From Actinocorallia herbida (GTDB lineage: Bacteria; Actinomycetota; Actinomycetes; Streptosporangiales; Streptosporangiaceae), in the NCBI RefSeq assembly GCF_003751225.1, contig NZ_RJKE01000001.1, forward strand, positions 9,672,001-9,736,000: 64,000 bases of DNA. Reading direction: 5' to 3'. Numbering within the stretch: position 1 is the first letter of the stretch; every line of letters begins with the position of its first letter. The notes under the pieces were generated by a model. The model saw only the letters and a list, made by a program, of their open reading frames with translations, made no database searches and was not told the origin of the DNA. Below, piece by piece: positions 1,965-36,574 of this stretch. The position numbers were made by a program, and so were the translations under genes.

Positions 1965-4826
1965 ATGGCCAGGGGGCAGTTGCGGATCTTTCTGGGCGCC
2001 GCTCCCGGGGTGGGCAAGACCTACGCGATGCTCGCGGAGGGGCGGCGCAGGCTTGAGAGGGGGACCGATGTCGTCATCGGGTATCTGGAAGGGCACGACA
2101 GGCCTCGCACGCTCGCGATGGCCGAAGGGCTCGAAGTCGTCCCGCGCCGCGAGGTGGGGTACCGCGGCGCCGTATTGAGCGAGATGGACGTCGCGGCGGT
2201 CATCGCGCGGGCGCCCCGGGTGGCGCTGGTCGACGAGTTGGCGCACACGAACGTGCCGGGCGCCGGAGCCGCGAAGCGGTGGCAGGACGTCGAGCGGATC
2301 CTCGAGGCGGGGATCGACGTGGTGACCACCGTGAACATCCAGCATCTGGAGTCGATGAACGATGTCGTCGCGCAGATCACGGGGGTGGCGCAGCACGAGA
2401 CGGTGCCGGACGAGGTGGTGCGCCGGGCCGATCAGATCGACCTCGTCGACATGGCGCCGGAGGCGCTCCGGCGCAGGATGGCGCACGGGGAGATCTACGC
2501 CCCGGAGAACGTCGACGCGGCCCTGTCGAACTACTTCCGTGTCGGGAACCTGACGGCGCTGCGCGAGCTCGCGCTGCTGTGGCTCGCGGGCAAGGTCGAC
2601 GAGCAGCTGGCCGGATACCGGGCGGCCCACGGCATCGGCGGTACCTGGGAGGCGCGTGAACGGGTCGTCGTGGCGCTCACCGGAGGGCCGGAGGGCGAGA
2701 CGCTGATCCGGCGCGCCGCGCGTATCGCCGCGCGCGGCAAGGGCGCCGATCTGCTGGCCGTGCACGTCACCCGGGGAGACGGCCTCGCGGGGGCCGGGCC
2801 CGCCTCCCTGACACGGCTGCGGGAGCTGGCCGAGAGCATGGGGGCGACCTACCACCAGGTCGTGGGAGACGACGTGCCACGCGCGCTGCTGGACTTCGCG
2901 CGGGCGGTGAACGCGACCCAGCTCGTGCTGGGCGTGTCACGGCGCGGCAGGTTCGCGCAGCTCCTGTCGCCGGGCGTCGGGGTGACCACCACCTCGCTGT
3001 CGGGGCCGATCGACGTGCACATGGTCACGCACGAGCACGTCGGCCGCAGCCGTCCAAGGGCCGCCCCGGCCGGGCTCGCGCCGGGCCGGAAGGCGCTGGG
3101 GTTCCTGCTGGCGCTGGTGGGACTGCCCCTGCTGACCTGGGGCCTGTCCGCGCTGCGCGGGTCGCTGGGGCTGCCGAGCGACATCCTCTTCTACCTCGCG
3201 GCGGTCGTGGCGGTGGCGCTGACGGGTGGGCTGTGGCCCGCGCTGTTCGCCGCCGTCGGCGGGTTCGGCCTGCTCACCTACTACTTCACCGAGCCGTTCC
3301 ACGCCCCGGGAATCGCCGACCCGGACGATCTCATCGCGCTCGTGGTGTTCATCCTCGTCGCGGTCGGCGTCAGCACGGTCGTCCACCTGGCGGCCCGGCG
3401 CTCCCGCGAGGCCGCCCGTCTCGGCGCGGACGCCGAGCTCCTGTCCACCCTCGCCGGAGACGTCCTGCGCGGAGAGCACGCCGTCGGCCTCCTCCTGCAC
3501 CGCCTCCGCGAGACCTTCTCCCTGGAGTCCGCCACGCTCCTGGAACGCGTCCCCGAACCCGCCCCCACCCACCGCGGCCCCACCTCTCCCACACCCGAGC
3601 CGCCGATCCGTCCATCGCCACGAGACGCACCGAACCCGCCCACCACGCCGACGCCTCCCTCCACGACGGACGGCCCGAGCACTCCCCACGCCGGCCCGCC
3701 GAACGCGCAGGACGGGTCGGCGGGCGCTCCTGCGGAGGTCCGCCCAAGCGAGCCCGAGGTCGGGCCGGTGTCTTCGGGTGGGGCGACGAAGGCGTCAGCC
3801 GGGTCTGTGGGGGGCCGTCCCAGCGCGGTCGAGGTCGGGCTGGCGGATTCGGGTGGGGTGACAGGCTTTGATGGGGTTTCGGGTGGGGGGCGGGGGTGGC
3901 GGGTGGTGGCCACGGATGGGGGGAGGCCGTGTACGGAGCCGGGGGAGGCGGATACGGAGGTGGTGGTGGAGGAGGGGCTGGTGCTGGCGTTGCGGGGGCG
4001 GATCCTGCCTGCGGGGGATCGGCGGATCCTTGAGGCGTTCGCGGTGCAGACGGGGGCCGCTTTGCGAAGGCGGAGGCTGGAGGCCGAGGCCGAGCGGGCC
4101 CGGCCCCTGGAGGCGGTCGACCGGATGCGCTCGGCCCTGCTCAACGCCGTCAGCCACGACCTGCGCACCCCGCTGGCCTCGGCGAAGGCAGCGGTGGAGA
4201 GCCTGCGCTCGCCGACCGTGGTGTGGACGGACGAGGAACGGGCCGAACTCGCCGACACCGCCGCCGCGTCACTCGACCGCCTCGACCGGCTGGTGGCGAA
4301 CCTGCTGGACATGAGCAGGCTCCAGGCGGGCGCGCTCGGGATGATGGTCGGTCCCGTGGCGCTGGAGGACGCGGTGCCCCGCGCGCTGGACGAACTCGGT
4401 GCGCCACCGGGCGTCGTGCGCGTCGGCCTGCCCGCGGACCTGCCCGAGGTCCTCGCGGACCCGTCCCTGCTGGCGCGGATCCTGGTGAACCTCGTGGCGA
4501 ACGCGCTGCGGTACAGCCCACCGGACGCCCCCGTGCTGATCACCGCGGGGACGATCCGGGACCGGGTGGAGCTGCGCGTCGCCGACCGGGGCCCGGGTCT
4601 GCCCGCCGCCGACAGGGAACGTGTCTTCCTTCCGTTCCAGCGGCTCGACGACCGCGGCGGCGGCGATCACCGGGGCGTCGGCCTCGGTCTCGCGCTGTCC
4701 CGCGGCCTGGCCGAGGCGATGGGCGGCGCCCTCATCCCCGAGGACACTCCGGGCGGCGGCCTCACCATGATCGTCTCTCTCCCGGCGATCTCCCCACCCC
4801 CACCCCACGACACCGCCGTCACCTGA
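1965..4826 (+). CDS. kdpD: KdpD-type sensor histidine kinase with an extra low-complexity insert
   Basis: This 953-residue membrane sensor kinase of the KdpD family normally controls the K+ ATPase operon kdpFABC. Residues 1-210 are the KdpD domain with Walker A (APGVGKTYAM) and Walker B (VALVDELAHTN). A UspA-like domain spans about 227-350, four transmembrane helices (DUF4118) 370-480, a GAF-like region about 490-690, the phospho-acceptor H731 in SHDLRTPL, and an HATPase domain with N-box NLVANALRYSP. Residues about 529-640 are a Pro/Gly/Ser-rich insert splitting the GAF region and containing a 25-residue tandem duplication (75 bp unit, 3741-3890). That makes the protein longer than the usual 840-900 residues. 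kdpE follows, but no kdpFABC genes are in the window. Confidence 0.93.
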   Translation: MARGQLRIFLGAAPGVGKTYAMLAEGRRRLERGTDVVIGYLEGHDRPRTLAMAEGLEVVPRREVGYRGAVLSEMDVAAVIARAPRVALVDELAHTNVPGAGAAKRWQDVERILEAGIDVVTTVNIQHLESMNDVVAQITGVAQHETVPDEVVRRADQIDLVDMAPEALRRRMAHGEIYAPENVDAALSNYFRVGNLTALRELALLWLAGKVDEQLAGYRAAHGIGGTWEARERVVVALTGGPEGETLIRRAARIAARGKGADLLAVHVTRGDGLAGAGPASLTRLRELAESMGATYHQVVGDDVPRALLDFARAVNATQLVLGVSRRGRFAQLLSPGVGVTTTSLSGPIDVHMVTHEHVGRSRPRAAPAGLAPGRKALGFLLALVGLPLLTWGLSALRGSLGLPSDILFYLAAVVAVALTGGLWPALFAAVGGFGLLTYYFTEPFHAPGIADPDDLIALVVFILVAVGVSTVVHLAARRSREAARLGADAELLSTLAGDVLRGEHAVGLLLHRLRETFSLESATLLERVPEPAPTHRGPTSPTPEPPIRPSPRDAPNPPTTPTPPSTTDGPSTPHAGPPNAQDGSAGAPAEVRPSEPEVGPVSSGGATKASAGSVGGRPSAVEVGLADSGGVTGFDGVSGGGRGWRVVATDGGRPCTEPGEADTEVVVEEGLVLALRGRILPAGDRRILEAFAVQTGAALRRRRLEAEAERARPLEAVDRMRSALLNAVSHDLRTPLASAKAAVESLRSPTVVWTDEERAELADTAAASLDRLDRLVANLLDMSRLQAGALGMMVGPVALEDAVPRALDELGAPPGVVRVGLPADLPEVLADPSLLARILVNLVANALRYSPPDAPVLITAGTIRDRVELRVADRGPGLPAADRERVFLPFQRLDDRGGGDHRGVGLGLALSRGLAEAMGGALIPEDTPGGGLTMIVSLPAISPPPPHDTAVT
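3741..3890 (+). repeat. Imperfect 75-bp tandem duplication inside kdpD
   Basis: Two adjacent 75-bp units (3741-3815 and 3816-3890) align without gaps. They share AGCG..., GAGGTCGGG and TTCGGGTGGGG blocks and encode two diverged 25-residue units with a common PS..EVG...SGG pattern. The duplication lies in the linker of the sensor kinase. Being an exact multiple of three, it keeps the frame. Confidence 0.75.
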
Positions 4827-24127: not shown

Positions 24128-25969
24128 ATGTGCGGAATCGTGGGTTACGTCGGTGGTCAGCAGGCCGAGCAGGTCGTCGTTGACGGACTGGCGCGGCTTG
24201 AGTACCGGGGATACGACTCGGCGGGCATCGCGCTCGTCGTGGAGGGGCGGCTCGCCACGGCCAAGAAGGCCGGGAAGCTGATCAACCTCCGCAAGGTGCT
24301 GGAGGAAGAGCCCCCGCCCGCCTCCACGGTGGGGCTCGGGCACACCCGGTGGGCCACCCACGGCGCGCCGAACGACGTCAACGCCCACCCGCACGTCGAC
24401 TGCGCCGGGCGGGTCGCGGTGATCCACAACGGGATCATCGAGAACTTCGCGCAGCTGCGCGCCGAGCTGACCGAGCGCGGGCACGTGTTCGAGTCCGAGA
24501 CCGACACCGAGGTCGTCGCGCACCTTCTGGAGGAGGAGGTGGGCGAGCACGGCCTGGCCGAGGCCATGCGCCGCGTCTGCCGCCGCCTGGAGGGCGCCTA
24601 CACCCTGGTCGCGGTCGACGCCCAGGACCCGGACGTGGTCGTCGGGGCCCGCCGGAACTCGCCCCTGGTCGTCGGCAAGGGCGTCGGGGAGAACTTCCTG
24701 GCCTCCGACGTCGCGGCGTTCATCGAGCACACCCGCGACGCGATCGAGCTGGGCCAGGACCAGGTGGTGGAGCTGCGCCGCGAGGGCGTCACCGTCACCG
24801 ACTACGACGGCCGCCCGGCCGAGGTCCGCGAGTACCACGTCGACTGGGACGTGTCGGCCGCAGAGAAGGGCGGCTACGACGCGTTCATGCTCAAGGAGAT
24901 CGCCGAGCAGCCGCGCGCCGTCGCCGACACCCTGCTGGGCCGGATCGGCGCCGACGGCCGCCTGCACCTCGACGAGATGCACATCACCGACGAGCAGCTC
25001 CGCGAGATCGACAAGATCATCATCATCGCGTGCGGCACGTCCTATCACGCCGGCATGATCGCCAAGTACGCGATCGAGCACTGGGCCGGGGTGCCGTGCG
25101 AGGTGGAGTTCGCCAGCGAGTTCCGCTACCGCGACCCGATCCTCACCAAGAGCACCCTGGTGATCGCGATCTCCCAGTCGGGCGAGTCGATGGACACGCT
25201 CATGGCGGTCCGGCACGCGCGCGAGCAGAAGGCCCGCGTGCTGTGCATCTGCAACGTCAACGGCTCCACGATGCCGCGTGAGTGCGACGGCGTCCTGTAC
25301 ACCCACGCCGGCCCGGAGGTCGGCGTCGCGGCGACCAAGACCTTCCTGACCCAGCTCGTCGCGGTCTACCTGATCGCCCTGTACATCGCGCAGGTGCGCG
25401 GCACCAAGTGGGGCGACGAGGTCTTCGCCATGGTCCAGCTGCTGGGCTCCATGCCGGAGAAGGTGGAGAAGGTCCTGGAGACCATGGAGCCGGTCCGCGA
25501 GCTGGCCCGCTCCCTGGCGGACGAGAAGTCCGTGCTGTTCCTCGGACGCCATGTGGGCTTCCCGGTCGCCCTGGAGGGCGCGCTGAAGCTCAAGGAGCTC
25601 GCCTACATGCACGCCGAGGGCTTCGCCGCCGGTGAGCTGAAGCACGGGCCGATCGCGCTCATCGAGGACGGCCTGCCGGTGATCGTGGTGGTGCCGCCGC
25701 GTGCCCGCGACGTGCTGCACGACAAGATCGTCTCCAACATCCAGGAGATCCGCGCCCGGGGCGCCCGCACGATCGTCATCGCCGAAGAGGGCGACGACTC
25801 CGTGGCCCCCTACGCCGACACGCTGATCGAGGTCCCTGCGGTGCCGACGTTGCTCCAGCCGCTGGTCACCACGATCCCGCTCCAGGTGTTCTCCTGCGAG
25901 CTGGCGACGGCCAAGGGCCACGACGTGGACCAGCCGCGCAACCTGGCCAAGTCCGTCACCGTGGAGTAG
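24128..25969 (+). CDS. glmS: Glutamine-fructose-6-phosphate aminotransferase (isomerizing)
   Basis: This 613-residue enzyme makes glucosamine-6-phosphate, the first step toward UDP-GlcNAc and peptidoglycan. The N-terminal class II glutamine amidotransferase domain has the catalytic cysteine at position 2 (MCGIVGY), RWATHGAPN and HNGIIENF. Two SIS domains follow (ACGTSYHAGM, AISQSGESMDT, LGRHVGFPVALEGALKLKE) and the C-terminus DVDQPRNLAKSVTVE is typical. The ATG at 24128 is fixed by the cysteine. acpS, nnr and alr lie downstream, separated by the ABC cluster. Confidence 0.98.
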   Translation: MCGIVGYVGGQQAEQVVVDGLARLEYRGYDSAGIALVVEGRLATAKKAGKLINLRKVLEEEPPPASTVGLGHTRWATHGAPNDVNAHPHVDCAGRVAVIHNGIIENFAQLRAELTERGHVFESETDTEVVAHLLEEEVGEHGLAEAMRRVCRRLEGAYTLVAVDAQDPDVVVGARRNSPLVVGKGVGENFLASDVAAFIEHTRDAIELGQDQVVELRREGVTVTDYDGRPAEVREYHVDWDVSAAEKGGYDAFMLKEIAEQPRAVADTLLGRIGADGRLHLDEMHITDEQLREIDKIIIIACGTSYHAGMIAKYAIEHWAGVPCEVEFASEFRYRDPILTKSTLVIAISQSGESMDTLMAVRHAREQKARVLCICNVNGSTMPRECDGVLYTHAGPEVGVAATKTFLTQLVAVYLIALYIAQVRGTKWGDEVFAMVQLLGSMPEKVEKVLETMEPVRELARSLADEKSVLFLGRHVGFPVALEGALKLKELAYMHAEGFAAGELKHGPIALIEDGLPVIVVVPPRARDVLHDKIVSNIQEIRARGARTIVIAEEGDDSVAPYADTLIEVPAVPTLLQPLVTTIPLQVFSCELATAKGHDVDQPRNLAKSVTVE

Positions 25970-25979
25970 ATCACGCCGC

Positions 25980-26049
25980 ACAGAACTTTCCGCGCCCTCC
26001 CGTCATCTGACCCACCACGGTGGATCTTCGACGGGAGGGCGTTCTCATG
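25980..26049 (+). repeat. Duplicated leader, copy 1 (relic of a permease 3' end plus leader)
   Basis: About 70 bp aligning with 26976-27046: ACAGAACTTT, then TCTGACCCA and CACGGTGGATCTTCG followed by CGGGAGGGC are shared almost base for base. In copy 2 the left part encodes the last residues of the upstream permease (QNFSGPSGV and stop). Copy 1 has the same frame and TGA (QNFPRPPVI and stop) but no permease in front of it. Confidence 0.85.
25995..26039 (+). promoter_or_regulatory. Hairpin that would occlude the Shine-Dalgarno of the 26047 gene
   Basis: CCCTCCCGTC (25995-26004) pairs perfectly with GACGGGAGGG (26030-26039), which contains the ribosome binding site of the ATG at 26047. The 25-nt loop holds a nested CCAC/GTGG hairpin. 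This would restrict translation unless opened. Confidence 0.6.
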
Positions 26050-27006
26050 CGCGGGGCGCTGCTCGTGGCCCGACAGGAGCTGGGCGCCAGCGTGCGCAAA
26101 GGCCGCTGGAAGGCCCTGCTGGCAGGCTGGACGCTGGTCGTGGGCCTGCTGGCGACGGTCCTCTACCGGACCTTCGGCGCCGAGGTCGACGGCGCGGATC
26201 TCCACGCCGGGGTGTGCGGGGCGCTGGTGCCCCTCGTCCTCCTGCTGGTCCTGTGCGCCGCGCCGGTGTTCGCCACCCGTCAGGTCGGCGGCGGACGGGG
26301 CTCGGGCTCCCTGCCCGCCCCGGCGCTGGGCGGGCTGCTGACGTCCTGGGGCACGGGCCTCGTCCTCCTGGCGCCGACCGTGCCCTTCCTCGCCGTGTCC
26401 GTGCTCACCGGGGCCGTGGGGCCGTTCCGGGCACTGGCCTGCCTCGTGGTGGCGGGACTGCTCGTCGGCGTGGTCTGCGCGCTCGGCCGGCTCTGCTCGA
26501 CGGCCGGGCGGCGCGGCGTCGCGGCCCTGCTGTCGGCGCTGACGGTCGGCGGGCTGGTCTTCGGCACCGTGCTCGCCTACTTCCTGAGCTTCCTGCTCCA
26601 GCCCCCGGCGGTGCCCGACGAGGGAGAGGGCGGCCCGTGGTGGCTGCTCGCCGCGAACCCGCTGATCGTCCTCGCCGACGCCGCGCCCCTGGACTCCTCG
26701 CGGATCGTCTGCGCGCGGGTGGAACCGAACGTCGAGCACTGCGAGCGGGAGGGCGGCGGCGACCTGCTGTCCCAGATGAGCTTCCTCATGCGCGACCTGA
26801 GGGCCGAAGACCGCTCTTACGAGTCCTACGGCGCCTACGTCGATCTCGACGAAGGGCGGGGAGGCCCCGGCCTGAACCCCGTCTGGCCCTACGGCCTGGG
26901 CATCGATCTGGCCCTCGCCGCCGGCGCGCTCACCCTGACCGTAAGGCGCCTCCGGCGTCCCGTCCGAGCACCGCGACAGAACTTTTCCGGCCCTTCCGGC
27001 GTCTGA
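26047..27006 (+). CDS. ABC-2-like permease A, lacking a cytoplasmic loop
   Basis: This 319-residue membrane protein is paralogous to the 27756-28769 product. Its helices are at about 23-42, 62-80, 105-130, 140-160, 165-190 and 290-308, with a large loop (about 195-285) beginning GPWWLLAANPLIVLADA. Where the paralogue has a conserved cytoplasmic segment (RDTLALLQLTRLTP...LGKLLA), this protein has a shorter Gly/Ser/Pro stretch (GGGRGSGSLPAPALGG). That segment normally contacts the ATPase, so coupling may be lost. The ATG at 26047 is preferred to a GTG at 26020 because GGAGG lies 8 bp upstream of it. Confidence 0.75.
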   Translation: MRGALLVARQELGASVRKGRWKALLAGWTLVVGLLATVLYRTFGAEVDGADLHAGVCGALVPLVLLLVLCAAPVFATRQVGGGRGSGSLPAPALGGLLTSWGTGLVLLAPTVPFLAVSVLTGAVGPFRALACLVVAGLLVGVVCALGRLCSTAGRRGVAALLSALTVGGLVFGTVLAYFLSFLLQPPAVPDEGEGGPWWLLAANPLIVLADAAPLDSSRIVCARVEPNVEHCEREGGGDLLSQMSFLMRDLRAEDRSYESYGAYVDLDEGRGGPGLNPVWPYGLGIDLALAAGALTLTVRRLRRPVRAPRQNFSGPSGV

Positions 27007-27046
27007 CCCAGCACGGTGGATCTTCGGCGGGAGGGCTGCTCGCATG
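26976..27046 (+). repeat. Duplicated leader, copy 2
   Basis: Second copy of the leader described at 25980-26049. It covers the last codons of permease A, its TGA, the spacer and the Shine-Dalgarno/ATG of the ATPase gene. Confidence 0.85.
26991..27035 (+). promoter_or_regulatory. Hairpin over the Shine-Dalgarno of the ATPase gene
   Basis: CCCTTCCG (26991-26998) pairs with CGGGAGGG (27028-27035) through eight pairs, including one G-U; a ninth position is mismatched and the tenth pairs again. The Shine-Dalgarno of the ATG at 27044 is in the right arm, as in copy 1, so the pairing potential is largely preserved despite divergence. Confidence 0.55.
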
Positions 27047-27754
27047 GCGGACATCGGGGTCGGGGTGCGGGCGACCGGGGTCGCGTACGCGTTCGGGAGG
27101 ACCCAGGTCCTCGCCGGGGTGGATCTGAGCGTCCCCTACGGCCGGGTGACCGGCCTCGTCGGGGAGAAGGGCGAGGGAAAGACCACGCTGCTGCTCGTCC
27201 TGGCGACGCTGCTCGCGCCCGACACGGGCCGGGTCGAGATCGCCGGGGTGGACGCCGTGGCCAGGCCGGCCGAGGCGCGGGCGGCACTCGGCTGGCTGCC
27301 CGACACGTTCGGCGTCCACGACAGGCTCACGGTCGTCGAGTACCTCGATCTCTTCGGCGCGGCGCACCGGCTGCACGCCCGCGACGTGGCGGTCCGCACG
27401 GGCGAACTCCTGGCGCTCACGGGGCTCGCCGGCCAGGCGCGTGAGCGCGTCCACGCGCTTCCACGCGGGCAGAGACAGAGGCTCGGGCTCGCCCGCGCGC
27501 TGGTGCACCGGCCGAGGGTGCTGCTACTCGACGAGCCGCTCTCCGGCCTCGACTCCGCAGCTCGGGCGGCCCTGCGCGACCTGCTGCTGCGGCTGGCGGC
27601 AGAGGAGGGCACCGCGATCCTCCTGTCCGGCGGTGCGCTCACCGAGATGGCCGGCCTCGCCGACCGGGTCGTCCTCCTGGACCGGGGCCGCGCGGTGGGT
27701 GAACGGCCGGCCTCCGGCCCGTTCCCGGATCTCGGTCCGCGAGAGGTGCGCTGA
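27044..27754 (+). CDS. ABC transporter ATPase without H-loop histidine
   Basis: This 236-residue ATPase has Walker A GEKGEGKTT (acidic residues replace the usual PNGAG), a degenerate signature LPRGQRQRLGLARAL, Walker B VLLLDEPLSGLD and a D-loop. At the position of the switch histidine (usual pattern SSHILAE) it reads SGGALTEM, so the conserved His is a Gly. That His normally senses the gamma-phosphate, so ATPase activity may be weak. It is flanked by two paralogous permeases and begins behind the duplicated leader. Substrate unknown. Confidence 0.88.
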   Translation: MADIGVGVRATGVAYAFGRTQVLAGVDLSVPYGRVTGLVGEKGEGKTTLLLVLATLLAPDTGRVEIAGVDAVARPAEARAALGWLPDTFGVHDRLTVVEYLDLFGAAHRLHARDVAVRTGELLALTGLAGQARERVHALPRGQRQRLGLARALVHRPRVLLLDEPLSGLDSAARAALRDLLLRLAAEEGTAILLSGGALTEMAGLADRVVLLDRGRAVGERPASGPFPDLGPREVR

Positions 27755-27755
27755 A

Positions 27756-28769
27756 ATGCCGAGTGCACGGGGAGTACTGCTGGTCGCCGGGCTGGACACG
27801 CGCGCCAGAATGCGTTCGGTCCGCTGGAGGTGGCTGCTCGCCCTCTGGACCGCGGGCGTGGGGCTCACCGCCTTCGTCCTGCACCGGGCCCTCGCCGGCG
27901 AGATCGACGCCGCCGATCTCGACCGCGCGTTCTCAGGCACGCTGCTCTTCCTCGTCCTGCTGCCGGTCCTGTGCGCCGCGTCGGCGCTCGGTGCCCGGTC
28001 GGTCAACGGGAAGCACAAAAGGGACACGCTGGCGCTGCTCCAGCTCACCCGGCTGACTCCCGCGGACCTCGCGCTGGGCAAGCTGCTGGCGTCCTGGGGC
28101 AGCGGTGTGCTGCTGCTCTCGCTGACCGCGCCGTTCCTCGCCCGGCCCCTGGTCCAGGACGGTTTCGGAGGGCTCCGCGCGCTCGTGTCCTTCGGGTCGA
28201 GCGCGCTTCTCATCGGCGTGGTGTGCGCGATCGGCCAGTTCTTCTCCGCCGTCGCCGCGCGGACGGTCACCGCGGTCCTGCTGTCCTGTCTGACGGTCTT
28301 CGGGCTGGTCTTCGGCACGTTGATCGCCTACTGGCCGACCTCCGCGTTCCGGCCCCTGACGCCGGGGGATCCGGGCGACCAGGACGACGGGGGCGCCTGG
28401 TGGCTGCTCGCGGCGAATCCGTTCGTCACCGTCGCCGACGCCGTGCCCAAGGAGAAGAGCCGCATGCTCTGCGTGCCCGCCGGACCCGGTCTGAGCATCG
28501 ACCGCTGCGCCCAGCAGGAGCCGGACCTCGACCTCCTCGCGATGATCAGCTTCGACGTCCGCGACCTGGCGGCCGACGAGGTGATCTACGACGCCTACAG
28601 CGAGGCGGCCTCGGCCGACGAGGGGACTCCGGGCGGCGAAGGGCTGAAGCCGGTCTGGCACTACGGCCTGGGCTTCGACCTGGTGCTCGCCGCGGGCGCG
28701 GTCGCCCTGACCGTCCGCAGGTTGCGCCTGCCGATGCGCGATCCCGCCCCGAGGACCCGCCTGCCCTGA
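27756..28769 (+). CDS. ABC-2-like permease B
   Basis: This 337-residue paralogue of permease A has about six helices and an extracytoplasmic loop beginning GAWWLLAANPFVTVADA. The putative ATPase-contact segment (KRDTLALLQLTRLTP, then LALGKLLASWG) is intact, unlike in A. GAGAGG lies nine bases before the ATG at 27756, which is one base past the ATPase stop region; the frame is open further upstream inside the ATPase gene but without a plausible start. Two cysteine-containing loop segments (MLCVPAG, IDRCAQQ) match positions in A (IVCARVE, EHCERE). Confidence 0.85.
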   Translation: MPSARGVLLVAGLDTRARMRSVRWRWLLALWTAGVGLTAFVLHRALAGEIDAADLDRAFSGTLLFLVLLPVLCAASALGARSVNGKHKRDTLALLQLTRLTPADLALGKLLASWGSGVLLLSLTAPFLARPLVQDGFGGLRALVSFGSSALLIGVVCAIGQFFSAVAARTVTAVLLSCLTVFGLVFGTLIAYWPTSAFRPLTPGDPGDQDDGGAWWLLAANPFVTVADAVPKEKSRMLCVPAGPGLSIDRCAQQEPDLDLLAMISFDVRDLAADEVIYDAYSEAASADEGTPGGEGLKPVWHYGLGFDLVLAAGAVALTVRRLRLPMRDPAPRTRLP

Positions 28770-28775
28770 GATCGG

Positions 28776-28781
28776 TACGCT
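28776..28781 (+). promoter_or_regulatory. -10-like hexamer of acpS
   Basis: TACGCT lies 6 nt before the GTG start at 28788, consistent with a leaderless mRNA. It marks a transcription unit boundary after the ABC cluster. Confidence 0.4.
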
Positions 28782-28787
28782 CGGGGG

Positions 28788-29141
28788 GTGATCGTGGGCG
28801 TGGGGATCGACGTGGTGGACGTGGCGCGGTTCGGGGCGGCGCTGGCGCGGACGCCGAAGCTGCGGGAGCGGCTGTTCACCGAGGGTGAGCGGGATCTTCC
28901 GGTGCGGTCCCTGGCCGCGCGGTTCGCGGCCAAGGAGGCGCTGGCCAAGGCGCTGGGCGCACCGGGCGGGCTGCTGTGGACCGACGCGGAGATCCGGCGG
29001 GGCGCGGCGGGCCGGCCGTCCCTGCACGTCACGGGCACGATCTCGGCGGTCGCCGACCCGCTCGGGATCACCGCCTGGCATGTGTCGCTCAGCCACGACG
29101 GCGGGATCGCGACCGCGATGGTGATCGCCGAGGCGGGCTGA
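28788..29141 (+). CDS. acpS: Holo-[acyl-carrier-protein] synthase
   Basis: This 117-residue phosphopantetheinyl transferase attaches 4'-phosphopantetheine from CoA to the acyl carrier protein. The N-terminal [12 protein letters not shown] holds the Mg2+-binding Asp. [12 protein letters not shown] holds the Glu/Lys pair, and the C-terminal [19 protein letters not shown] is typical. The length matches AcpS (115-125). The start is GTG. It heads the block continuing with nnr and alr. Confidence 0.95.
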
Positions 29142-29209
29142 GCGGGTAGGACGCCGGAGACGGGCCCACGGGCGAGACATCCCTTCATCCCTTTTCGCAG
29201 GAGGCGGCG

Positions 29210-30754
29210 GTGCGGTACGCGCACGCGGTGGACGAGGTACGGGCCGCTGAGGCGGCGCTCATGGCACGGCTGCCGGAGGGCACGCTGATGCAGCGGGCCG
29301 CGGCGGGGCTCGCCGCCGTGTGCGCGCAGCTGCTCGGCGGCCTCTACGGCTCCCGCGTGCTGCTGCTCGTCGGCAGCGGGGACAACGGAGGCGACGCCCT
29401 GTACGCGGGCGCGCGCCTGGCGCGCAGGGGCGCCCACGTGACGGCCGCGCTGGCCGCGCAGAAGACGCATCCCGAAGGGCTCGCCGATTTCAGGGCGGCT
29501 GGAGGCCGCGTCCTGGATTACGCCCGTTTGGAGTCCCTGCTGTCCCCGGGAGAAGGCTCCGCGCCCTCCTCGGCGGCCAGGCGGGCCTTCGAAGGCACCG
29601 ACCTGGTGATCGACGGCCTTACCGGCATCGGAGGCCGGGGCGCCCTGCGCGGCCTGTACGGGGCACTCGTCAGGGCCCTGCCCGAGGAGGCCGCGGTGGT
29701 GGCGTGCGACATCCCGAGCGGGGTCGACGCCGACACCGGCGAGGTCGCCGACACCGCGGTCCGGGCCGACGTGACGGTCACGTTCGGCACGCTCAAGCCC
29801 GGCCTGCTCATCGATCCGGGGGCCGCGCACGCGGGGGTCGTCGAACTCGTCGACATCGGCCTCACCGGGCTGCCCGAGCCCGCCGTCATCGCCCCGGCCA
29901 CCGCGGACGTCAGGCCGCCCCGCCCGGAGGCGGAGACCGACAAGTACCGGCGCGGCGTCGTAGGGGTGATCGCCGGGGGCGCGCGGTTCACCGGGGCCGC
30001 GCTGCTCTCGGTCGGCGCGGCGCTGCGCGGCGGCGCGGGCATGGTCCGGTTCGCCTCGGCCGCCCGGGTGGTCGCGCTGGTCGACGCGCGCTGGCCGGAG
30101 ACCGTCACCACGGTCCTGCCCGAGGCGGCCCCGGGCGACGACACGGAGCCCGATCTCGACGCCGTCGGCCGGGTCCAGGCCTGGGTGGTCGGCCCCGGCC
30201 TCGGCGTCGACGCGCGAGGAGAACGCCTGGTCAAGGCCACCCTGCGCAGCGAGGTGCCCGTGCTCGTCGACGCCGACGGGCTCACCGTCCTCGCGGGGCT
30301 CCCGGCCGGGGTGCGCCGCGCCCTGCTGGACCGCCGGGCCCCGACGCTGCTCACCCCGCACGCGGGCGAGCTGTCCCGGCTGCTGAACGTCGGCCGCGAT
30401 CAGATCGAGGCGCGCAGGCTCGTCCATGTCCGCGCCGCGGCCGCCGGCCTCGGTGTGACGGTCCTGCTCAAGGGCTCCACGACGCTCGTCGCCGATCCGG
30501 GCGGCCAGGTCCGGGCCAATCTCACGGGCACGCCCTGGCTGGCCACCGCGGGCTCCGGAGACGTCCTGTCGGGCCTCGCCGGGGCGCTGCTCGCGCAGGG
30601 CGTCGACGCCGCCGACGCCGGGGCCTGGGCCGCCCACCTGCACGGACTGGCCGCCCGGATCGCCGCGGCGCCCCGGCGCGGCCTCGCGCCCGCGCCGATC
30701 ACCGCGGAGGACGTTCTCGCCGCGCTGCCAGAGGCGTTCGCGCAACTGTCCTGA
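29210..30754 (+). CDS. nnr: Bifunctional NAD(P)H-hydrate epimerase / ADP-dependent dehydratase
   Basis: This 514-residue fusion repairs hydrated NADH and NADPH. The N-terminal YjeF epimerase domain (about 1-215) has VGSGDNGGDALYAGARLARRG and ACDIPSGVDADTG. The C-terminal carbohydrate-kinase-like dehydratase domain (about 225-505) has KYRRGVVGVIAGG, RGGAGMVRF and the nucleotide-binding TAGSGDVLSGLAGALLAQG. The start is GTG with GGAGGCGG upstream. alr follows after 63 bp; this order is common in actinobacteria. Confidence 0.95.
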   Translation: MRYAHAVDEVRAAEAALMARLPEGTLMQRAAAGLAAVCAQLLGGLYGSRVLLLVGSGDNGGDALYAGARLARRGAHVTAALAAQKTHPEGLADFRAAGGRVLDYARLESLLSPGEGSAPSSAARRAFEGTDLVIDGLTGIGGRGALRGLYGALVRALPEEAAVVACDIPSGVDADTGEVADTAVRADVTVTFGTLKPGLLIDPGAAHAGVVELVDIGLTGLPEPAVIAPATADVRPPRPEAETDKYRRGVVGVIAGGARFTGAALLSVGAALRGGAGMVRFASAARVVALVDARWPETVTTVLPEAAPGDDTEPDLDAVGRVQAWVVGPGLGVDARGERLVKATLRSEVPVLVDADGLTVLAGLPAGVRRALLDRRAPTLLTPHAGELSRLLNVGRDQIEARRLVHVRAAAAGLGVTVLLKGSTTLVADPGGQVRANLTGTPWLATAGSGDVLSGLAGALLAQGVDAADAGAWAAHLHGLAARIAAAPRRGLAPAPITAEDVLAALPEAFAQLS

Positions 30755-34416: not shown

Positions 34417-35097
34417 GTGCTGGTACTGGCTTTCGACACCGCGACCTCGGCGGTCACCGCGGCTCTCTACGAGTGGTTCCCTGGCGCCGCCGCCCGGCCC
34501 GTGGCGGTCGTCGCCGGGGTGGACCGGCAGCGCCACGCCGAGGTGCTGTCCCCGTCGATCTCCCGCGTCCTCGCCGAGGCCGGGGCGTCCCCGGGCGACC
34601 TCGACGCGATCGCGGTCGGCGTCGGCCCCGGCCCCTACACGGGACTGCGGGTCGGCCTGGCGACCGCCGACGCCCTGGGCAACGCGCTGCGCCTCCCCGT
34701 CCACGGGGTCTGCACGCTCGACGCCCTCGCCTGGGCGAGCCGCCGCACCCAGCCCTTCGTGGTGGCCTCCGACGCGCGCCGCAAAGAGGTCTACTGGGCG
34801 CGCTACGACTCCTTCGAGCGGCGGGTGACCGAGCCGTCGGTCGGCCCGGCCGCCGATGCCGCGGCCTCCGGGCTGCCCGCGATCGGCGAGGGCGCCGCGC
34901 TGTACTCCGCGGTGTTCGAGGAGCGGGAAGGTCCCGCTGACCGGGCGCCGCTCCTGCCGTCGGCGGGGGCGATCGCGGAGATCGCGATCAGCAGGCTGTC
35001 GGGCCGCGCCGGACTGCCGCTGCTGCCGCCAGAACCGCTCTACCTGCGCCGCCCCGACGCCCAGGAGATCGGCGCACGGAAGAAGGCGAGCCAATGA
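34417..35097 (+). CDS. tsaB: tRNA t6A biosynthesis protein TsaB
   Basis: This 226-residue ASKHA-fold protein is partner and activator of TsaD in tRNA t6A synthesis. It begins VLAFDTATSAVTAAL and has the conserved VGVGPGPYTGLRVGLATADALG region and VASDARRKEVYWARY. The GTG at 34417 is preferred over the TTG nine bases upstream because a TAGGCT hexamer sits 8 nt before it and no Shine-Dalgarno is present. rimI overlaps its stop in ATGA. Confidence 0.94.
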   Translation: MLVLAFDTATSAVTAALYEWFPGAAARPVAVVAGVDRQRHAEVLSPSISRVLAEAGASPGDLDAIAVGVGPGPYTGLRVGLATADALGNALRLPVHGVCTLDALAWASRRTQPFVVASDARRKEVYWARYDSFERRVTEPSVGPAADAAASGLPAIGEGAALYSAVFEEREGPADRAPLLPSAGAIAEIAISRLSGRAGLPLLPPEPLYLRRPDAQEIGARKKASQ

Positions 35098-35549: not shown

Positions 35550-36574
35550 CCGAACCCCTGGTGCTGGGCATCGAGACCTCCTGCGACGAGACGGGCATCG
35601 GCATCGTCCGCGGGCACACCCTGCTCGCCGACACGGTGGCCTCCAGCGTCGACGAGCACGTCCGCTTCGGCGGGGTCGTGCCCGAGGTCGCCAGCCGCGC
35701 CCACCTCGAGGCGATGACCCCGACGATCGAGCGGGCCCTGGCCGAGGCCGGGGTGGCGCTCAGCGACCTCGACGCCATCGCGGTCACCGCGGGCCCCGGG
35801 CTCGCGGGCGCGCTGATGGTCGGCGTCGCCGCCGCCAAGGCGTACGCCCTCGCGCTCGGCAAGCCCCTGTACGGGGTGAACCACCTGGCCGCCCATGTGG
35901 CGGTCGACCAGCTGGAGCACGGGCCGCTGCCCAAGCCGTGCGTGTCGCTGCTGGTCTCCGGCGGGCACTCCTCGCTGCTGCTGGTCCCCGACGTGGCCCG
36001 GGACGTCCGCTCGCTGGGCTCGACCGTCGACGACGCGGCGGGCGAGGCGTTCGACAAGGTCGCCAGGGTCCTCGACCTGGGCTTCCCCGGCGGTCCGATC
36101 ATCGACCGGAGGGCCAGGGAGGGCGACCCGCGCGCGATCGCGTTCCCGCGCGGCAAGATCGACGACGGGACCTACGACTTCTCCTTCTCCGGCCTGAAGT
36201 CCGCCGTGGCGCGCTGGGTCGAGGCGAAGGAGCGGGCCGGGGAGTCCGTGCCGATCGCCGACGTGGCCGCGTCCTTCCAGGAGGCCGTGGTCGACGTGCT
36301 GACGCGGAAGGCGATCGCGGTCTGCAAGGACAACGGGGTCGACCACCTCCAGATCGGCGGGGGCGTCGCGGCGAACTCGCGGCTCAGGGAGATGGCCGCG
36401 CAGCGCTGCGAGAAGGCGGGCGTCCGGCTGCGGGTGCCCCGGCCCGGTCTGTGCACCGACAACGGCGCGATGGTCGCGGCGCTCGGCGCGGAACTCGTCG
36501 CGGCGGGTCTGGAGGACTCGCGGCTGGACATTCCCGCCGATTCCTCGCTGCCCGTGACGACGGTCCGGCTCTAG
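35546..36574 (+). CDS. tsaD: tRNA N6-adenosine threonylcarbamoyltransferase
   Basis: This 342-residue enzyme transfers the threonylcarbamoyl group to A37 of tRNA. It starts [14 protein letters not shown] and has the metal-binding HxxxH in [42 protein letters not shown] and the C-terminal metal Asp in CTDNGAMVA. The GTG start overlaps the rimI stop. Its TAG shares the tetranucleotide CTAG with the stop codon of the convergent phosphatase gene. Confidence 0.97.

Follow-up and report, generated by a model that had tools for sequence, protein, structure and literature searches.

Promoter-like elements ahead of ABC transporter genes in Actinocorallia herbida may carry an anti-Shine-Dalgarno arm directed at read-through RNA

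Introduction

Why would two genes of one ABC transporter cluster each be preceded by nearly the same short element, and why would the RNA of this element be able to pair with the Shine-Dalgarno (SD) sequence of the gene that follows? The question is raised by a stretch of 64,000 nucleotides of the Actinocorallia herbida genome (the window, to which all coordinates refer). The gene order at the locus is glmS, permA, ABC ATPase, permB and acpS. The glmS gene (24128-25969, plus strand; glutamine--fructose-6-phosphate transaminase, NCBIfam TIGR01135, E 1.9e-249) ends in the stop codon TAG at 25967-25969, and the order is kept in relatives. It is followed on the same strand by permA (26047-27006), an ABC-2-like permease paralogue with 49% identity to permB and no match in Pfam at 1e-3. 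Next on the plus strand come the gene of a short ABC transporter ATPase of 236 aa (27044-27754; Pfam PF00005, E 7.4e-25) and that of the ABC-2 permease permB (27756-28769; Pfam PF12679, E 1.5e-6).

An initial annotation of this locus described a duplicated leader whose hairpin hides the ribosome binding site, and suggested a translational switch opened by a ribosome on the upstream gene, by a ligand or by a protein. The analysis reported here leads us, with moderate confidence, to a different reading, in which each copy is an ECF-type promoter nested in a hairpin that would silence read-through RNA.

Materials and Methods

Relatives of the locus were sought with the permease protein, a better probe for this purpose than leader DNA; a similarity search with the leader DNA in 100 related genomes matched only the genome's own two copies. 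The permease is present in 38 of 341 genomes of the family, and an alignment-based scan of named genomes gave 84 loci, of which the best 80 were kept, whereas scanning with one protein alone gave none. Nine permease matches without loci, permA itself among them, were left out of the leader set. The glmS gene precedes the ATPase gene in 41 loci, and 29 distinct leaders remained after duplicates, such as L052 and L037, had been collapsed; no leader was obtained from L051, where the ATPase was absent from the piece, or from L035, where the glmS end was not found. The set of 30 leaders used throughout consists of 28 motif-bearing relatives and both window copies, with 27 distinct spacers, and leaves out L047, the one distinct leader that lacks the promoter motif. 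A scripted SD rule defined the gene starts of the relatives. For the loci without glmS, the upstream frames in Saccharopolyspora, the helix-length test and the background starts, genes and starts were assigned by simple ORF, GC3 and SD rules. Because the leaders are related, leader counts overstate their independence, and the clustered tests give the fairer figures.

Results

The repeated element was first delimited as a direct repeat of 61 nucleotides at 25980-26040 and 26976-27036, with 87% identity and a spacing of 996. The duplicated leader of the initial annotation is confirmed by this repeat, and so are the starts it had assigned to the next genes, ATG at 26047 and ATG at 27044. When the genome was scanned with GAACTTT-N16-TCTGACCCA, both window sites were recovered at 0 mismatches, together with one further, different site at 2. 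A plasmid search gave no match.

By its sequence, the element reads as a putative promoter of the ECF-sigma type, GAAC-N16/17-C(G/A)TC. Copy 1 has a -35-like AGAACT at 25982-25987, whose GAAC is invariant in the 30 aligned leaders, a spacer of 16 nucleotides at 25988-26003 and a -10-like CATCTGA at 26004-26010, where C(A/G)TC is found in all 30. Copy 2 has the same layout on the plus strand, with AGAACT at 26978-26983, a 16-nucleotide spacer at 26984-26999 and CGTCTGA at 27000-27006. A gap of 12 nucleotides separates the glmS stop codon from the -35 of copy 1. Copy 2 begins within the end of permA, so that the permA stop codon TGA (27004-27006) doubles as the final three bases of the -10; the coding end of permA, the promoter and the hairpin region overlap at 27000-27006. 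A scan of 25500-29300 for housekeeping sigma-70 promoters found none, and such a promoter was rejected as a candidate.

Both copies can form a hairpin over the SD sequence. The arms of copy 1 at 25993-26004 and 26030-26041 are complementary at 12 of 12 positions and, with G-U pairs counted, extend to 13 contiguous pairs between 25992-26004 and 26030-26042. Most of this left arm is contained in the promoter spacer, and the right arm includes the SD sequence GGGAGGG. In copy 2, 11 contiguous pairs, G-U again counted, join 26988-26998, which lies within the spacer, to 27028-27038, which likewise includes GGGAGGG. The pairing with the SD sequence of the next gene that had been described therefore exists in both copies, while the 10 and 8 pairs ascribed to them were too few (13 and 11). 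Folding of the two leaders, a check proposed with that description, agreed with it in that the minimum free energy (MFE) folds pair the SD sequence in copy 1 and in copy 2.

The two copies differ in how far they stand out. Compared with dinucleotide shuffles, the fold energy of copy 1 has a z of -4.59, with 0 of 200 shuffles as good, and that of copy 2 is unremarkable (z -0.88, 40 of 200 as good). The longest helix, compared with shuffled spacers, gave p values of 0.006 and 0.074, respectively. As a background, 134 SD-bearing starts were picked automatically from 20 pieces of this genome, each 20 kb long; one of these starts has a helix of at least 13 pairs in like geometry, and three have one of at least 11. 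The longest hairpin of this background (L172, minus strand, at about 4964) has at least 15 pairs and no T run, and by eye it resembles a terminator lacking the U tract.

We examined conservation of the promoter-like motif in the relatives. The pattern [ACGT]GAAC[CT]-N16/17-C[AG]TCNNA is kept in 28 of the 29 distinct glmS-ABC leaders, with a spacer of 16 nucleotides in 26 and of 17 in two (L046 and L070). A conserved GAAC-like -35 and CGTC-like -10 at 16-17 bp, the features by which we recognize the ECF type, are thus found in 28 of 29 leaders and in both window copies. The columns invariant over the 30 leaders are GAAC, one C of the spacer, four letters of the -10 (C, T, C and A), two G close to the SD sequence, and the TG of the start codon. 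Within the genome itself, GAACY-N16-CRTCNGA occurs at 31 sites versus 6 for the reversed pattern, and GGAACC-N16-CGTCNNA at 10 sites versus 3. By eye, some of the motif sites lie directly before start codons and others within genes. The 31 sites (L132-L161), a fivefold excess over the reversed pattern, form a candidate ECF regulon, and genes preceded by a motif site include FhaA-like, CorA-like and DisA-like ones. The genome has 53 Sigma70_r2 matches, and a comparison by eye found no sigma gene autoregulated through the motif.

The consensus letters of Streptomyces sigma-E promoters are GAAC and CGTC. For Streptomyces coelicolor, the part of PMC6767563 that deals with sigma-E gives promoter spacers of 16-17 bp, and about half of the genes found there belong to the cell envelope. 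The window element resembles the promoters so described in being a putative promoter of ECF type with a spacer within this range. As the left arm lies between -35 and -10, a leader transcript started from the element's own promoter should not contain it.

Next, we asked whether the pairing between spacer and SD region is retained across the leader set. The duplex formed by each spacer with its own leader has a mean energy of -35.1 kcal/mol, versus -30.3 (sd 0.67) with permuted partners, and 0 of 10,000 permutations were as good as the own pairs. When one leader was taken from each cluster below 65% spacer identity (about 11 leaders), the swap test gave a median z of -4.4 with a largest p of 0.0055; at less than 60% (about 7 leaders), the values were -3.6 and 0.02. 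Compared with shuffled spacers, the duplex energies of the 30 leaders have a mean z of -2.36, with z below -2 in 17. A control set made of the 31 genome sites minus the window's own two, scored on a fixed 46-nucleotide downstream stretch and probably including sites that are not promoters, gave a mean z of 0.13 (sd 0.99; 1 of 29 below -2). Partner swapping, composition and control sites all indicate that the pairing is selected in the leader set as a whole. The proposal that pairing was kept as the copies diverged thus holds across relatives beyond chance, by the swap and shuffle tests and by the SD-pairing test described below.

Individual leaders contribute unequally to this result. The longest helix reaches p<0.05 against shuffled spacers in 14 of 30 leaders (Fisher p 2.7e-12, a value that ignores relatedness); the other 16 miss this level, window copy 2 (0.074) included. 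Six leaders (L028, L038, L039, L040, L045 and L050) are hardly or no better than shuffled spacers in duplex energy, with z from -1.06 to +0.96. The longest contiguous pairings have 18 pairs in L017, 17 in L032 and L046, 15 in L049 and 14 in L048. The L048 leader measures 82 nucleotides, versus 26-38 elsewhere, and its right arm still adjoins the SD sequence.

The registers of pairing differ between leaders, and for this reason classical covariation is absent: RNAalifold returned 0 consensus pairs on the 30 leaders. A lack of covariation had been named in advance as evidence against the suggested switch. What we found instead of column-wise covariation is complementarity that has been re-registered, as revealed by swapping partners.

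The consequences for two kinds of RNA were then predicted. In read-through RNA, the SD sequence pairs with the promoter stretch with a mean probability of 0.81, versus 0.46 with shuffled spacers. This probability exceeds 0.5 in 27 of 30 leaders and is above the shuffled value in 26, the shuffled value being higher in the other 4. For the window copies, the own values are 1.00 and 0.99 and the shuffled ones 0.89 and 0.71; as the latter are already high, the excess in these copies rests on helix length, not on SD pairing as such. The mean probability of an unpaired SD sequence is 0.17 in read-through RNA and 0.50 in promoter-started RNA, modelled with a start assumed 5 nucleotides past the -10 heptamer, and the promoter-started RNA is the more open in 27 of 30 leaders. 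This contrast is specific only in part, since shuffled spacers give 0.30 in read-through RNA (own value lower in 24 of 30). Openness below 0.1 in read-through RNA is reached by just 11 of 30 leaders. The layout expected of occlusion is found, with the left arm upstream of the own start, as placed from the motif, and the right arm containing the SD sequence.

Finally, we looked at loci that lack a glmS leader. At 60 such loci there was no SD sequestration overall, the probability of an unpaired SD sequence being 0.345 versus 0.330 in the control; the idea that SD hairpins are common to loci without glmS was rejected on this match. The test covered loci with a usable start and left out L011, L020, L021 and L080. 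Five Saccharopolyspora loci without glmS (L059, L063, L066, L071 and L078), chosen by eye after this test and with a pattern likewise fitted by eye, have AACC-N16-CGTC together with pairing between spacer and SD sequence (z -1.60 to -3.68). Their -10 is CGTC in four and CGTC then TTA in L078, and in four of the five GCACTCC pairs with GGAGTGC. In these loci a same-strand reading frame terminates upstream, and Pfam gave no match to its product. The promoter is also present at two Virgisporangium loci, where the pairing is not in excess (z 0.84 and -0.46).

Discussion

Promoter-like elements with conserved spacing, self-complementarity retained over the leader set despite divergence of the sequences, and an SD sequence predicted to be paired in read-through RNA are established here by computation. 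From them we infer a transcription start, a sigma factor that uses it, the existence of read-through RNA and the translational block itself. The spacer of an ECF promoter (-35 GAAC, 16-nucleotide spacer, -10 CRTC) would double as an anti-SD sequence. Polymerase entering from the preceding gene, presumably glmS for copy 1 and permA for copy 2, would make RNA that contains the spacer, which would fold onto the SD sequence, and in some relatives also onto the start codon, and block translation of the ABC gene. This block would probably be combined with some termination of transcription. RNA started by the ECF sigma factor would begin past the spacer and lack the left arm, leaving the SD sequence more open. 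The transporter would in this way be insulated from housekeeping transcription of glmS and be produced chiefly under activity of the sigma factor.

Copy 2 may have an additional property. Its left arm would be read by ribosomes translating permA, and because the permA stop codon (27004-27006) lies 5 nucleotides past this arm, such a ribosome should unfold it. Translation of permA may therefore open the hairpin and couple synthesis of the ATPase to it. The opening by an upstream ribosome put forward in the initial annotation is thus plausible for copy 2; for copy 1, where the glmS stop codon lies 22 nucleotides before the arm, it is not.

The main rival is that the hairpin serves chiefly as the glmS terminator, and that the ECF promoter and the SD sequence overlap it through the shortness of the gap; we give this a lesser but appreciable chance of being right. 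Merely 12 nucleotides lie between the glmS stop codon and the -35 in the window, and terminators without a U tract are common in GC-rich genomes. When the 80 nucleotides after glmS were folded in 22 other relatives (25 loci scanned, none obtained from L206, L208 and L217), four gave z from -3.7 to -8.0 (L201, L203, L204 and L205). These four glmS ends are from genomes without a permease match (G022, G007, G024 and G009), which favours a terminator origin of the hairpin, and additional hairpins further downstream of glmS were seen by eye in relatives. At most other glmS ends, however, the first 80 nucleotides are unremarkable in their fold. The hairpin also has no T run, a scan of 25500-29300 for canonical terminators (a GC-rich stem followed by a T run) having returned 0 sites. 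Over the leader set, moreover, the pairing is aimed at the SD sequence beyond what shuffled spacers achieve (0.81 versus 0.46), and in L048 the right arm adjoins the SD sequence in spite of the 82-nucleotide leader. Termination may also be a partner of occlusion; the two follow one logic at different levels.

A true leader switch, with transcription starting upstream and a ligand, a protein or an upstream ribosome opening the hairpin, appears improbable. It would account for the sequestered SD sequence and for the unfolding of copy 2 expected from permA ribosomes. The letters conserved among leaders are, however, those of promoter, SD sequence and start codon and not those of stems or loops, and a common fold is absent, as is any Rfam match (a search of 25000-29500 with a cut-off of E 1 returned 0). 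A riboswitch is made unlikely by these last two results, and a riboswitch or other known RNA was rejected on them. With the arm placed in the spacer between -35 and -10 as well, the ligand- or protein-opened switch of the initial annotation is left without support. A helix that shifts its register between lineages and matches no Rfam family favours a generic block over a switch read by a ligand or a protein.

Still less probable is that a dimeric regulator binds the inverted repeat in DNA as its operator and so covers the promoter. In copy 1 the arms form a perfect inverted repeat that overlaps the promoter, and the arm GCACTCC is common to four of the five Saccharopolyspora leaders, as an operator might be. 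Among Actinocorallia, Spirillospora and Actinomadura, by contrast, the arms vary in sequence, length and register, and operators of one regulator are normally stable in sequence. Equally improbable is that the complementarity arose by chance, the genome being GC-rich and the SD sequence a common one. The ordinary fold energy of copy 2 (40 of 200 shuffles as good), the 16 of 30 leaders without significant helix length and the SD pairing of shuffled window spacers speak for chance; the swap and shuffle tests on the set and the 29 control sites speak against it.

The promoter-nested hairpin may extend beyond this locus. We tentatively propose, as possible rather than probable, a device that recurs among actinobacteria: the 16-nucleotide ECF spacer would be under selection both for the spacing it gives the DNA and for its action as an anti-SD arm against upstream transcripts. 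Saccharopolyspora would be a second, separate case of it. Under such a device, the arm within the spacer would be free to change, and would therefore re-register and escape ordinary RNA-family searches.

The principle of occlusion is already known; its combination with an ECF promoter, the position in the spacer and the spread in actinobacteria were not found described in the literature searched. This search found no paper joining glmS, an ABC transporter, Actinomadura and a sigma factor, although such a paper may exist outside the literature covered. The transposase gene of IS10 is subject to fold-back inhibition. For the transposase gene of IS200, the relevant part of PMC3196728 describes a structure that stops or silences transcription impinging from outside. 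Both resemble the proposed hairpin in acting against transcripts from outside but are mobile elements, whereas the present case is a chromosomal transporter beside glmS.

Closer in layout are the T4 genes e, soc, 49 and I-TevI, for which sequestration of the SD sequence and/or the start codon in longer transcripts started upstream is described in the portion of PMC3014915 devoted to them. According to the same portion, gene e has late promoters within the DNA for the 5' strand of the structure, and their transcripts, which lack this strand, are well translated; a 100-fold effect is given, and the layout recurs in related phages (PMC3014915). The window element resembles gene e, so described, in having a putative promoter inside the DNA of the 5' strand that would occlude. 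It differs from the T4 cases in that the promoter is a bacterial one of ECF type, not a phage late promoter, and that the anti-SD arm lies in the spacer between -35 and -10. Unlike gene e as portrayed there, it is retained across many species in which the pairing has changed register, and it is known from sequence alone. In Bacillus subtilis, sigG lies behind spoIIGA-sigE, and in the passage of PMC5942855 that treats this arrangement a large hairpin is suggested to keep read-through RNA from being translated; it cannot form in RNA from the own promoter. The likeness is that the hairpin is possible only in read-through RNA; promoter class, genes and phylum are different from those of that account, and homology is not claimed.

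If the proposed mechanism is true, a promoter carries its own insulation against read-through in letters that were thought to be free, and searches for covariation would miss such insulation because the helix shifts its register. The mechanism would then also supply an easy test to apply to other promoters of alternative sigma factors that follow co-directional genes, and a small natural design by which genes could be insulated. In Actinomadura and its relatives, the ABC transporter next to glmS would probably be under the control of an ECF sigma factor, perhaps of one responding to envelope stress.

The history of the locus can be approached through its relatives. L016, L017 and L018 have a single leader in the order glmS, ATPase, permease, with one ATPase and one permease each, whereas the window has one ATPase with two diverged permeases (49% identity) at 26047-28769. 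The simplest history would be a tandem duplication of leader, ATPase and permease, followed by loss of the first ATPase. The remaining ATPase (27044-27754) has GEKGEGKTT as its Walker A motif, where most aligned relatives have GANGAGKTT or GPNGAGKTT. It also lacks the H-loop histidine (SGG versus SSH in relatives) and a C-terminal part of about 70-85 residues. Judged by these features the protein looks worn, and it may be inactive or altered.

Elsewhere in the window, two 58-nucleotide repeats with 78% identity lie side by side at 3730-3787 and 3805-3862, and a direct repeat of 141 nucleotides with 71% identity occurs at 34491-34631 and 35659-35799.
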